From Halarcobacter sp. (lineage in GTDB: Bacteria > Campylobacterota > Campylobacteria > Campylobacterales > Arcobacteraceae), in the NCBI RefSeq assembly GCF_963675975.1, contig NZ_OY780939.1:496001-560000 (forward strand): DNA of 64,000 nt. The letters are read 5' to 3'. Position 1 is the stretch's first letter. Each line of letters begins with the position of its first letter. Position numbers and translations under genes: made by a program. Below the pieces are notes generated by a model. The model saw only the letters and a program-made list of their open reading frames with translations, was not told the DNA's origin and made no database searches. This document shows positions 7,809-16,307 of the stretch, piece by piece.

Positions 7809-10316
7809 TTACGCCTTTTTAATTACAGCTTTTGAAAATCTATATCCATCAAAAAGTGCTTTAGTATCTAAATCCTTTTGGAATGTTGATACATATGCAA
7901 TCTCACCAGATATTTGATCATCACAATATACGTTTAGTTCAAGTTCAGTTCCATTTGAACTAACTTTTACTTTATCACCCTTTTCCAGTTCAAGTTTTCC
8001 AAATAGTTCTTCTGAAACAAAAACACCCGATTGTAAATCTTTTGCAAACTCATGAGCAATAGCTGTGAATTCATTAAATTGGTTTATTGGATTTGCTCTG
8101 TAAATAAGAGTTTCATTTTCAGACAATGTTAATGTAGCACTTAATGCCTCATCAACTTGTTCAACCGAAAGTTCATTTAATCCCTCTTCTAATGTTTTTG
8201 GTACAACTATCTCTTGAGGTACTAAATCATACCCTCTAAACTCAACTCTGTCATTTCCAAAGTAGTTAGGAAGTTTATCAAAATCAACTGCTTTGAAACC
8301 AAGCTCTTCTGGAAGTTGAATTGTATATTCTATTGTATATTCTACATCATCTTCTAGAACTACATTTGCAATATCATTTAACACATAACCCTTATAATCT
8401 ATTGCAACATTTGTAGGGATTACTTTTTTGTCAATGTTTGTAAATGTTCCCTCTTGTTGGTTAAGTGCTGGCATATCTAAATCACCATCACCTAAAGCAC
8501 TCAATTGAAAATCTGCTTTTTCATTGTAACCTACAGTTGAACCAGTAGCCTCATCACTTAAGTCACAAATTAAACTAACCCCTAAAGTATTAGTTTGAGA
8601 AGGGATTATAACAATACTAAAATCAGTATACTTATCTATAAATCCACAAAGTTTTGCTAAGTTCTCACTTCTTGGGTGTGTATATAAATCTTCCCCAACA
8701 ATTAAAGAGTAAGTATCTTTTTTAGCAAGTAATGCTTCTAAAGTATCAAGGAATTTTTCATCTAATCCTAGATTGTCAAGAAGTTTTGTGTATTCAAACT
8801 CTACTTCTTTATTAACTTTTTTACTTACTACTTTTTTCTTTTCAGTCTCTTCACCTGTTTCTTCATCTTTTATAACTTCTACTACTGTTTCTTTTACTGT
8901 TTCAACTATAGTTTTTGTTCTAGTTTCTTTTTGAGAATCAATGAAAGATTGAATATCTTGAGGTAAATCTTTTCCAAATTTATCTAAGATTAGATATAAA
9001 ACTGACTCTTCAGATAAAGGGTTATATTGTACAAACTCCGTTGTTTTTCCCCTTTTTCCTACTTTTTCCATAACCTTATCAGAGATTGGATGGAAATATA
9101 AAGCTGCACCTTTGTTCATTACAACAGAATTATTTAGTGCATATCTTGCATTTGGTAAATCTGATTTTAAATATGACCCAACAGAGATTACAAAGTTTGA
9201 ATCATGTACATCTTTTAGTGTTGACGAGTATAAAGCTGTTCCAGAAGTAGAACTATATGCACTTAAAAAATTTTTATAATTGTATGCATCTTTATTTACA
9301 AGTTTTGCACCTGTTTTATTAGCTATTTTTTGTAAGATAAATGCTTCTTCATTTGTAATATATGAGTTAAAAAGAATTGAATCTGCTTTTTTAAATGCTT
9401 CAACAGCTTTTGCAAAACTTTCTTCATCTTTTCCTTGAACTTTGTTTTCAAAGTCATATCCAAATCTAGCAGCACCATTTAGTGTTGAATAGTGATGTTC
9501 ATTTGTAACTCTATAAATTTTAGGCTCTGCATTTTCTATAGATTCATGTTTTGTTTCATAATACATAAATGCACAATCTGATGAGTGAGGGTTTGCTGCT
9601 GGAATTTTATTTAATTCCCAAGCATTTGATTTGTATTGGAAGTCTGAAGAAACTAATGCTCCAACTGGACAAACAGAGATACATTCACCACAATCTGTAC
9701 AAGAGTCTTCATCAAAGCCAATAAGTGATTTATTAAGCTTATTCCACATAGAGTAAGCATCTTTTGGCATAGTGTCTTTAAATGTTTTTTCAATTGCATC
9801 TGCACCACGTTTAACTGTACTTAAAGCGTTTGATCCAATCATATCTTTACATACAGTTACACATTTTTCACAAACAATACATAAACCTGGATCATATTTC
9901 ATAACTCCCCAGTTTGCTGCTGGTCTTGGCACATCTTTTATAGTGTAGCTTTGAGAATCAACTTTCATATATAAAGAGTAGTTTTGTAGTTCACACTCTC
10001 CACTTTGATCACAAACTCCACATTGCAAAGGGTGATTTACATCATATACTTCCATTATTGCACGTCTTTCTTTTGCAATATTAGCAGTATCAGTTGTAAT
10101 ATTCATCCCCTCTTTTATTTTAGTATTACAAGAGTAAACTTGTTTACCATCAGCTTCAACAAGACACAGTCTACATGCCAATGTTGGTGAACATCTTGTT
10201 AGATAACAAACAGCAGGAACAAATATATCATTTGCACGAGCTACATTTAATATATATTCACCCTCTTTTGCTTGAACACTCTTACCATTTATCGTTAATG
10301 TTATTAAATCACTCAT
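7809..10316 (-). CDS. nuoG: NADH-quinone oxidoreductase subunit G, long form
   Basis: This is the large iron-sulphur subunit of the peripheral arm, 835 residues. Visible ligands are a [2Fe-2S] set C37, C48, C51, C63; an N5-type set H95, C99, C102, C108; and two ferredoxin motifs at C146-C156 and C206-C216. The region after about residue 245 is a degenerate molybdopterin-oxidoreductase-like domain. It contains a charged low-complexity linker (about 463-505, rich in K, E, V and T) that probably forms an extended or coiled segment. Its C-terminal half closely resembles the next upstream gene (10316-11128). It overlaps that gene by 1 nt. Confidence 0.95.
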   Translation of the reverse strand: MSDLITLTINGKSVQAKEGEYILNVARANDIFVPAVCYLTRCSPTLACRLCLVEADGKQVYSCNTKIKEGMNITTDTANIAKERRAIMEVYDVNHPLQCGVCDQSGECELQNYSLYMKVDSQSYTIKDVPRPAANWGVMKYDPGLCIVCEKCVTVCKDMIGSNALSTVKRGADAIEKTFKDTMPKDAYSMWNKLNKSLIGFDEDSCTDCGECISVCPVGALVSSDFQYKSNAWELNKIPAANPHSSDCAFMYYETKHESIENAEPKIYRVTNEHHYSTLNGAARFGYDFENKVQGKDEESFAKAVEAFKKADSILFNSYITNEEAFILQKIANKTGAKLVNKDAYNYKNFLSAYSSTSGTALYSSTLKDVHDSNFVISVGSYLKSDLPNARYALNNSVVMNKGAALYFHPISDKVMEKVGKRGKTTEFVQYNPLSEESVLYLILDKFGKDLPQDIQSFIDSQKETRTKTIVETVKETVVEVIKDEETGEETEKKKVVSKKVNKEVEFEYTKLLDNLGLDEKFLDTLEALLAKKDTYSLIVGEDLYTHPRSENLAKLCGFIDKYTDFSIVIIPSQTNTLGVSLICDLSDEATGSTVGYNEKADFQLSALGDGDLDMPALNQQEGTFTNIDKKVIPTNVAIDYKGYVLNDIANVVLEDDVEYTIEYTIQLPEELGFKAVDFDKLPNYFGNDRVEFRGYDLVPQEIVVPKTLEEGLNELSVEQVDEALSATLTLSENETLIYRANPINQFNEFTAIAHEFAKDLQSGVFVSEELFGKLELEKGDKVKVSSNGTELELNVYCDDQISGEIAYVSTFQKDLDTKALFDGYRFSKAVIKKA

Positions 10317-11128
10317 TATGCATCAACCTTTTCAATCTTTACTTGCTTGTACCGATATCCTTGAGATAGATTAGTAGTATCTCCATATGACATAGGACAT
10401 AATGCTACAGTTCCAAATAAATTTTTATCTACTTTAAATTCTCTTTGAAACTTCTCACCACCACAATTAATATAAATTTTATCGTGGTTAGAGATTTTTG
10501 CAATTTTTGCAAAAGATTCACTTCCAATTAAAGTTGAGATATCATCCTCTTCATAAACTCTATAAATAACTGTTCCATTATAAGAGTGTAACTCTTCAGG
10601 CTCTTCAAGATTTTCATCTAAAACTTCATTTAAAATAGAATTATATTCAGGGTCTAAAGCTACAATATTTAAATCACTAAATTTTCTTATTACTGAAAGA
10701 ATTTTTACAATATTTTCTACTCTTTCGTGTGAGAACACATCTCTTCCAATAATCATTGTTTTTTGTTTTTTATTTTCTGCTTTTTCTGAAGCCTCTTCAA
10801 ACTCTTCTTCCCCAGCTGAACTTTCAGCAGAGATATAACCAATATCTAAATCATCTATATAAGCTTGAACCTTTTCATCCGATTGTTTTACAAAAGTATC
10901 TAATAATAAAGAGGTAATACCCTCTTCACTTCCAACTTCATATTTTATAAATTGTGTGTAATATACTTTTAAATCAATATTATCAATAGGATGTAAATAT
11001 ATAAACTCTGCATTGTTTTTTGCAATTGCTTCTATAATTGATTCTTGAATCTCTACATTATCTCTCGCTAAGAAAGATCCAAATGTGATAATATAATCAC
11101 TTTTTGCAATAATTTCTTTAATATCCAT
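10316..11128 (-). CDS. NuoF-position complex I subunit (Cj1574c-type), NuoG-like
   Basis: The gene occupies the nuoF slot but the 270-residue protein has no FMN, NADH or 4Fe-4S motifs of NuoF. In Campylobacter the equivalent gene pair is thought to adapt complex I to flavodoxin rather than NADH (established for C. jejuni; inferred here). Its sequence parallels the C-terminal half of NuoG: residues 9-80 match NuoG about 371-448, residues 123-160 match about 534-572 (shared pattern IG.D.[FY][ST]H.R.EN), and the last 60 residues match the NuoG C-terminus. Even the acidic linker (about 100-122) is in the same place as the NuoG linker. Confidence 0.85.
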   Translation of the reverse strand: MDIKEIIAKSDYIITFGSFLARDNVEIQESIIEAIAKNNAEFIYLHPIDNIDLKVYYTQFIKYEVGSEEGITSLLLDTFVKQSDEKVQAYIDDLDIGYISAESSAGEEEFEEASEKAENKKQKTMIIGRDVFSHERVENIVKILSVIRKFSDLNIVALDPEYNSILNEVLDENLEEPEELHSYNGTVIYRVYEEDDISTLIGSESFAKIAKISNHDKIYINCGGEKFQREFKVDKNLFGTVALCPMSYGDTTNLSQGYRYKQVKIEKVDA

Positions 11129-11130
11129 TT

Positions 11131-11475
11131 CTACTCTTCATCATCGTCGTCATCGTCATCATCATCTTCAGCTTGTTGCGCTTTTTTTGCTTCTTCAGCT
11201 GCTTTCTCTTCTGCTTCTTTTTTCTTTTTTTCAATAAGCTCTACATCAGTCTCTTTTTTTACAACTATAGTCCAATCAACTTCATTGAATTTAATAGAAT
11301 TCATAAGTGTATATCCAGCTTCAAAAACTACATCAGCACTTTTTTGTACTCCACTAAAATCTCCAATTTCAAAAAGAAAAATCGCATTTTCACCAGAACT
11401 AACCTCTTTATCCATAAGTTCTAACATTCTGTCGTAGAAGTTATCTTTTAAAGGTCTTAAATCAAATCTTTTCAT
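11131..11475 (-). CDS. NuoE-position complex I subunit (Cj1575c-type)
   Basis: A 114-residue protein in the nuoE slot that lacks the four-cysteine [2Fe-2S] motif of true NuoE. A small globular part (1-80) is followed by a Lys/Glu/Ala-rich helix (about 80-103) and a run of nine aspartates ending in EE. The position, between nuoD and the NuoG-like gene, matches the small substitute subunit in Campylobacter. The acidic tail could form an ionic docking surface for a redox partner (inference). Confidence 0.8.
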   Translation of the reverse strand: MKRFDLRPLKDNFYDRMLELMDKEVSSGENAIFLFEIGDFSGVQKSADVVFEAGYTLMNSIKFNEVDWTIVVKKETDVELIEKKKKEAEEKAAEEAKKAQQAEDDDDDDDDDEE

Positions 11476-14570: not shown

Positions 14571-16307
14571 TTAGCTAAAAAATCCTACTTTAGCTTCAGA
14601 ATCAAAATTACCTTGTTTTTCTTTTTCTATTTGTTCTTCAAACGATTTAACGGTAAAAAGAGGTTCATCTTCAACTGCAATTTTAAACGCAGTATTTTTG
14701 ATTACCATCTCAATTTGACCACCAGTTAACTCATGTGTAGCAAGTTTTTGAATATCAAACCCCTCTTCCAACGGAAGATTCTCAGGTAGTAGCTTTTCCC
14801 ATAATTGAACTCTTTGTTTCAAAGTTGGTTTTTTAAACTCAATTTTATAATTGAATCTTCTAGAAAAGGCTTTATCAAGTGATTCTAAAAGGTTTGTCGT
14901 TGCAATAAGTATTCCGTCGAACCTTTCAATCTGTTCTAAAAATATATTTTGCATCTGATTATGCATCTTTTCGCTACCACTTGCGCTAGTAGTTGTTCTT
15001 GCACTTAAAAACTGATCTGCTTCATTTAAAAGTAGTATTGGTTCAGACTTACTTTTATCTCTCAAATCATAATATTTATCAAAAATTGCCCTAACATTTT
15101 TTTCACTTTCACCAACATACATTGATAAAATCTTTGAACAATCAAAGCTCAAAATCTGCTTTTTTAAGGACTTTGCAAAGGCTAAAGCTGTTAATGTTTT
15201 ACCTGTTCCTGCAAAACCATAAAAAATAATTCTAGCTTCAATTCCTCTTTTTCTATCTTTTAATCCCCACTCTTTAAGTCTATTAAATACATCTTTATCC
15301 ATTTGCTTTAATAAAGAGTTTAAAACCTCTCTTGTTTTTTCATTTAATACAACATCATCTAAAGATTTACTTGTAGTAACCAATTCAAACATATCTTGGT
15401 CTTTAATTAGACTATCTAGTTTTACTTTTCTGTTAGATGTTTTCTTTTTTGTAGGGTGTGATATTTTATAAAGAATATCATCTGGGATATAAAAGTTTCT
15501 ATTTATCCCACCAAAAGGTGTTAAGACCTCATCATAATCAACCAAACCATTTGAAACTAAATTTGAACCCTCTTCTAATAAACTTCTAAATTTAATCTTC
15601 TCATAATCATCACTTGAGATTAATTCAATTAAAGAGTTCATATCTCTAATTGTCCCATCTCCACCTGAATATTCCTCTTTTAATAGGGCTAAAAACAACA
15701 TCTGTTCTTGTTCATTTAGATTATTCGATTTAAAAAAATCTTCAAGCAAAATTTCACTATTTGTTTCTTTTACTCTGTCTTTTATTCTATTTTCCAAAAG
15801 TGTTAGTTTTGTTCTTAGTCTATTTATATTTGGCGAGTTTTCATCAAAGTTTCTTTTTACTAAATTTAATTGTTGAGCTAAATCTATTTTGAAAAACTGA
15901 TCTTGTAAATACTCCAAATGGTCGGCATAACTTTTTATTTCAGGAAGAACAAACTCCAATGAACCTTTTTCCAAAAACTTTAAATAAGCAGGAGATAAAG
16001 TTACAGCTGAGTTTAAAAGCTCTAATTGAGACATATCACTTAATTTTAGATGTTCAAAACTATTTTGTACTAGCCATCCTAAACCTAACAATGCTTTTAT
16101 CTCATGGATATGATTTAAATGTTCATAGCTTTTTACATCATAAAACTCTGCTAAGATATCAATTACTATAAGAGTATCTCTACCTGTGATGTACTCTTTT
16201 GTAATATATTGTAGAATTTTCGCTTCCTCTTTTGAACACTTTAGATGTTTGAAAAAGTTTGTTTTTTCAACATTATTGGCTTTTATGTAATCTATAATCT
16301 CTTTCAT
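14571..16307 (-). CDS. AAA+ family ATPase with large N-terminal region
   Basis: The 578 residues have an unrecognised, mostly helical N-terminal part (about 1-330) and one C-terminal AAA+ module. The module has Walker A FYGFAGTGKT near residue 365, a Walker B segment ILLLNEADQF near 422 (Asn in the place usually held by Asp), a sensor segment ILIATTN, and arginine fingers in AFSRRF. Such single-AAA proteins remodel or unfold partner proteins; the substrate is unknown. Its start overlaps the preceding small membrane protein by 4 nt, so the two are probably one transcription unit. Confidence 0.8.
   Translation of the reverse strand: MKEIIDYIKANNVEKTNFFKHLKCSKEEAKILQYITKEYITGRDTLIVIDILAEFYDVKSYEHLNHIHEIKALLGLGWLVQNSFEHLKLSDMSQLELLNSAVTLSPAYLKFLEKGSLEFVLPEIKSYADHLEYLQDQFFKIDLAQQLNLVKRNFDENSPNINRLRTKLTLLENRIKDRVKETNSEILLEDFFKSNNLNEQEQMLFLALLKEEYSGGDGTIRDMNSLIELISSDDYEKIKFRSLLEEGSNLVSNGLVDYDEVLTPFGGINRNFYIPDDILYKISHPTKKKTSNRKVKLDSLIKDQDMFELVTTSKSLDDVVLNEKTREVLNSLLKQMDKDVFNRLKEWGLKDRKRGIEARIIFYGFAGTGKTLTALAFAKSLKKQILSFDCSKILSMYVGESEKNVRAIFDKYYDLRDKSKSEPILLLNEADQFLSARTTTSASGSEKMHNQMQNIFLEQIERFDGILIATTNLLESLDKAFSRRFNYKIEFKKPTLKQRVQLWEKLLPENLPLEEGFDIQKLATHELTGGQIEMVIKNTAFKIAVEDEPLFTVKSFEEQIEKEKQGNFDSEAKVGFFS

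Follow-up and report, generated by a model that had tools for sequence, protein, structure and literature searches.

Complex I of the Campylobacterota is known to lack NuoE and NuoF, with nuoXY genes replacing nuoEF (PMC6682613), and the source of the replacement has remained open in the literature accessible here. A. butzleri has canonical nuoEF in place of nuoXY (PMC6682613). In C. jejuni, Cj1574c, probably together with Cj1575c, is reported to pass electrons from flavodoxin to complex I (PMC4178425), and HP1264, a homologue of the protein found in the NuoE position, is reported to bind FMN (PMC6269979). We analyzed such an operon in a 64,000-nucleotide stretch of a Halarcobacter sp. genome (the window), using E' and F' for the proteins in the NuoE and NuoF positions and NuoG1 and NuoG2 for the two NuoG types described below. 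The relevant features of the window are as follows.

10316-11128, minus strand: F', the NuoF-position protein of 270 aa, on ORF, profile, and tree evidence very probably a reduced NuoG1
10796-10846, minus strand: F' residues 95-111 (DIGYISAESSAGEEEFE), a conserved motif
10634-10660, minus strand: F' residues ~157-165, the site of the missing QEGTF segment, where NuoG1 has ~100-120 further residues
7809-10316, minus strand: NuoG of the NuoG2 type, 835 aa, with Fe-S domains retained (domain and cysteine check)
7812-9200, minus strand: NuoG residues 373-835, the region homologous to F' (BLASTP and profile comparison)
11131-11475, minus strand: E', the NuoE-position protein (PF16514 at 1e-38), with an acidic tail
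14571-16307, minus strand: AAA ATPase gene, upstream of nuoA

The reading frames, strands, and lengths of F' and NuoG agree with those of a first-pass annotation of this DNA. The F' gene lies between the PF16514 E' gene and nuoG, overlapping the NuoG start by one base, in an operon without nuoE and nuoF. This is the position of the NuoY/Cj1574c/HP1265 type, which is also similar in size, and from position and family F' is probably the Campylobacterota NuoY/Cj1574c/HP1265 protein. Proteins matching the F' profile were present in f10 and f20 genomes, taken as Campylobacteraceae and Sulfurospirillum relatives, and the matching proteins of f10 and f13 genomes occupied the F' position (names for families f10, f13, f15, and f20 were inferred from gene content and named relatives). 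NuoF, the 51-kDa NADH/FMN subunit, is like F' in operon position only, since F' has neither sequence or profile similarity to it nor an FMN domain. The C-terminal end of E' is an aspartate run, DDDDDDDDDEE, encoded by a near-simple repeat (window 11131-11180). The same genome also carries, outside the window, a second complex I operon of the NADH type (L071:2827-17313; G000:C1 about 90.8-105.3 kb) that encodes NuoE, NuoF, and a 502-aa NuoG; a citrate synthase gene separates nuoF from nuoG, a layout repeated in L072 and L073.

Sequence comparison showed that the whole of F' is homologous to the C-terminal half of NuoG, and that NuoF is not a homologue. BLASTP of F' against the window NuoG aligned residues 10-165 with NuoG 373-578, and the first two of three similarity blocks named in the first-pass annotation fell inside this alignment, including IIGRDVFSHERVEN against IVGEDLYTHPRSEN. 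The profile-profile comparison of 39 F' proteins with NuoG (271 columns, 99.8% probability) reached the third block, GYRYKQVKI against GYRFSKAVI, so all three blocks are real. NCBIfam model PRK08493, which describes Campylobacterota NuoG, matched F' at 1.3e-25 in three stretches. The F' profile had no similarity to the NuoF profile (probability 0.1%) or to the profile of X, a flavoprotein introduced below (0.3%), and an origin from either protein was rejected. The annotation had also described a charged linker at the same place in both proteins, which proved false: NuoG has a ~45-aa charged insertion that is absent from F'. The acidic stretch D95-E111 of F' (DIGYISAESSAGEEEFE) is instead a conserved motif, D-x-GY-x-S-x-E-x(4)-E-x-x-x-E, common to operonic F', stand-alone F', and NuoG1, and absent from NuoG2.

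F' is predicted to have the molybdopterin-oxidoreductase/NuoG fold. Its AlphaFold2 model (mean pLDDT 91.3, pTM 0.89) matched formate dehydrogenases in VIA-align with Z of 21.9 and 21.3, the latter being E. coli FdhF, and matched E. coli NuoG with Z of 17.1 over 243 aligned residues. Formate dehydrogenase and nitrate reductase catalytic subunits, both molybdopterin oxidoreductases, were the closest in structure (Z ~20-22, covering nearly all of the model), although F' shares only about 10-15% identity with them, is about one third of their length, and has no recognised cofactor domain. A PDB sequence search with F' gave no match, and the fold search alone returned these relatives. Compared with the NuoG of Campylobacterota, F' has the same fold over the C-terminal half, with the C-terminal molybdopterin-like domain identified by PRK08493, fold, and profile comparisons alike, but it has none of the Fe-S domains and is missing the ~100-aa QEGTF segment and a loop of 13-15 aa. 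Pfam searches of F' detected neither the N-terminal 2Fe-2S/4Fe-4S domains of NuoG nor the NuoF domains PF01512 (FMN/NADH-binding) and PF10589 (4Fe-4S), and F' contains no conserved cysteines. The fold matches thus identify F' as the core of the molybdopterin-enzyme fold in compact form, with no Fe-S domains.

The first-pass annotation had proposed that the substitute arose by duplication of the neighbouring subunit's C-terminal half and not by change of NuoF. Membership in the NuoG family rather than NuoF was borne out. The direct partial copy of the adjacent NuoG was not, and we give it next to no credence: the similarity is real (BLASTP E 3e-14) and the genes are adjacent, but F' is much closer to NuoG1 (profile match E 6e-76) than to NuoG2 (E 5.8e-30), and the D95-E111 motif is common only with NuoG1. 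Trees split F' and NuoG1 from NuoG2 at 100/100, and topology tests rejected grouping the window F' with the window NuoG (p-AU 1.9e-6) and all F' with all NuoG2 (p-AU 0.0016).

Searches across 60 related genomes often gave, as the best F' match outside its closest relatives, a ~750-780 aa protein adjoining nuoG. These loci were organized as nuoABCD, E', X (~670 aa), NuoG1 (~750-780 aa), NuoG2 (~820 aa), and nuoHI, and both NuoG genes were full-length at the locus in many Campylobacterota. NuoG1 retained the full set of conserved cysteines. In X, the NuoF 4Fe-4S domain PF10589 precedes, and is fused to, a GltD-like FAD/NAD(P) part with Fer4_20 and Pyr_redox_2; the protein appears to be an alternative module for NAD(P)H input in free-living Campylobacterota. 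Examples are L031:9282-11285 and the corresponding place in L039, L061, L178, L190, and L205, always with a full-length NuoG1. E', X, and NuoG1 occurred together at 53 loci and E' with F' but without X at 60. Calls of F' length and of X coincided at three loci, where the NuoG1 genes were broken or at a contig end. The NuoG duplication is ancient and was of a full-length gene, and F' is almost surely a reduced NuoG1. We propose that the ancestral Campylobacterota complex I would have carried X and a first full-length NuoG (NuoG1) between E' and NuoG, and that several lineages, including that of the window, would have lost X, the Fe-S half of NuoG1, and the internal ~100-aa segment. The remainder would be a compact domain that has the molybdopterin-enzyme fold and apparently carries no cofactor. 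The window NuoG has lost cysteines of the N7-type cluster motif at residues ~240-285 (NPHSSDC, TLNGAARFG); NuoG1 and some NuoG2 retain them.

F' proteins were scattered among NuoG1 in a tree of 76 rows and 253 columns, from which Helicobacteraceae-type rows were left out (Helicobacteraceae-type F', L099, and L033 were poorly placed long branches). Sulfurimonas F' fell within Sulfurimonas NuoG1 (100/97), one Sulfurovaceae F' was sister to NuoG1 from its own genus group (98/92), and the Arcobacteraceae F' of L168 fell within Arcobacteraceae NuoG1 (100/99 and 99/89). The window F' belonged to the main Arcobacteraceae F' clade (100/100), and the remaining F' were Campylobacter/Sulfurospirillum/Helicobacter-like and Nautilia-like. 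This topology has six changes of state, at least five of them forced by starred branches. A tree of six other nuo proteins of the operon (2188 columns) has seven changes and agrees with the F'/NuoG1 tree. The changes themselves are undirected, and we read them as reductions because regaining ~450 homologous residues, and X in that place, would need transfer, of which the matching gene and operon trees show none. Read this way, the trees require at least five apparently independent reductions of NuoG1 to F'.

A single ancient truncation, after which F' spread by horizontal transfer or was kept as a separate paralogue, would account for the identical three parts missing in all F', and 23/24 F' grouped together at 91/93 in our first, smaller, sparsely sampled tree. 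A single origin was rejected once Sulfurimonas, Sulfurovaceae, and more Arcobacteraceae loci were added (one clade of all F', p-AU 0.006), and we consider it quite unlikely: each of the F' groups concerned (Sulfurimonas, Sulfurovaceae, and two from Arcobacteraceae) lies among the NuoG1 of its own relatives, with the operon tree matching. Every reduction removed X, the Fe-S half, the QEGTF segment of ~100-120 aa, and the 13-15 aa loop, but the exact deletion ends differ between reductions. Intermediates also exist, in L055 (472 aa) and L202 (448 aa): both lack X and the Fe-S half, and L055 visibly retains the internal segment. At L202 (Sulfurovum sp. AR), an unrelated FAD-type oxidoreductase gene (L202:2475-3488) lies on the opposite strand at the expected place of X, adjoining the 448-aa NuoG1.

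Parallel reduction of NuoG1 supplies an origin and a stepwise path for the protein that replaces NuoE/NuoF, shows one gene reduction occurring several times in parallel, and uncovers a little-noticed ancestral layout of X and two NuoGs in many free-living Campylobacterota. We found no earlier report of a second NuoG or of the origin of NuoY in the accessible literature, whose limited coverage makes this weak evidence of novelty. The accessible literature on nuoEF replacement likewise did not contain the NuoG1 origin, the parallel reductions, or the survival of F' without the complex.

F' and complex I did not always occur together. F' was present without E' and without a close NuoH in G019 and G025, and both of these genomes, the ones inspected, have a second, NADH-type complex I elsewhere. 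Aliarcobacter-type genomes (G025, G081, G152, G171, G230, and G276) had the AAA ATPase gene next to F' with no surrounding nuo genes, an arrangement with A. vitoriensis and A. cryaerophilus as named relatives (L165 and L171). In Nautilia-like genomes, complex I has 11 subunits and lacks E, F, and G, and F' is encoded by a separate gene (compare PMC2628731). Seven genomes had an F'-profile match and zero NuoH-family proteins (G067, G069, G165, G120, G201, G119, and G150), the matches in G119 and G150 being only partial or weak; all seven are drafts, in which missing genes are weaker evidence than in closed genomes. Conversely, NuoG and NuoH were present and F' missing in G030, G038, and some Helicobacteraceae-type genomes (G100, G086, and G284). 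F' is thus not indispensable to complex I, as some complex I operons have lost it. Among stand-alone F', dN/dS was 0.09-0.20 in the Nautilia-like group, indicating clear constraint, and 0.11-0.75 in Aliarcobacter-type genomes, where constraint looks looser.

F' could be a functionless, decaying relic, given its absence from some complex I operons and the relaxed dN/dS of Aliarcobacter-type genomes. This is very unlikely, as F' was intact in most of the 241/249 matching genomes (a count that also takes in NuoG matches), invariant residues are common to operonic and stand-alone forms, and the Nautilia-like group is under strong constraint. A role outside complex I is rather probable because several lineages that lost the complex retained F'. 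We also lean, if only slightly, toward the broader conclusion that parallel reductions, at least five of them, removed the Fe-S clusters from a duplicate electron-transfer subunit of complex I and left a domain whose function is independent of the complex. Such a function would explain why orphan F' persists after loss or replacement of nuo in Aliarcobacter, Nautilia-like, Campylobacteraceae-type, and Helicobacteraceae-type genomes. It predicts that in Campylobacter/Helicobacter relatives this protein acts outside the complex I of which it is annotated as a subunit, which changes the reading of F' gene knockouts.

Within complex I, F' and E' would cap NuoG at the tip, helping to dock a low-potential donor (flavodoxin or ferredoxin) whose electrons would pass into the Fe-S chain of NuoG itself, perhaps by way of FMN on E', and F' would also act in a role independent of this complex. 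We hold the docking or scaffold role within complex I tentatively, at just under an even chance. Flavodoxins are themselves acidic, which makes the acidic F' motif a less than obvious partner for them. F' itself might alternatively be the electron-input subunit, binding flavin or donating electrons directly, as the reported link of Cj1574c to flavodoxin-dependent complex I activity could suggest (PMC4178425). We consider this unlikely: F' has no Fe-S ligands and no flavin domain, relatives of its fold bind pterin and not flavin, the reported FMN binder is the E' homologue HP1264 (PMC6269979), and genomes that lack this complex I also encode F'. With neither a conserved cysteine nor a recognised cofactor domain, F' offers no support for active electron transfer. 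The most likely reading of F' is a docking or assembly scaffold that carries no cofactor and has an additional role outside complex I. Taken whole, the explanation combining a reduced NuoG1, a putative docking or scaffold function, and a probable role outside complex I is in our judgment highly likely.

Co-occurrence of F' with 2-oxoacid oxidoreductase, flavodoxin, and molybdoenzymes followed no consistent pattern. Of 24 genomes tested, only G030 (L043, Arcobacteraceae), which lacks F', had no POR_N (2-oxoacid oxidoreductase) protein, but POR_N is present in other genomes lacking F'. The neighbours of stand-alone F' were, depending on lineage, the AAA ATPase and an MqnD-like gene, a TPR protein, a hemN-like gene, or PseD, and because they differ between lineages no partner emerged. 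The AAA ATPase, which has a winged-helix domain (window 14571-16307), is upstream of nuoA in many genomes, directly adjoins the stand-alone F' in Aliarcobacter-type genomes, and also adjoins the 11-subunit nuo operon of a Nautilia-like genome (L074:4681-6384). Stand-alone F' lies directly before the TPR protein of ~750-780 aa, which we take to be PflA-like, at L099:7370-10456, L056:480-3340, L123, L126, L132, and L135, and in L074 a TPR protein of like kind follows the nuo operon.
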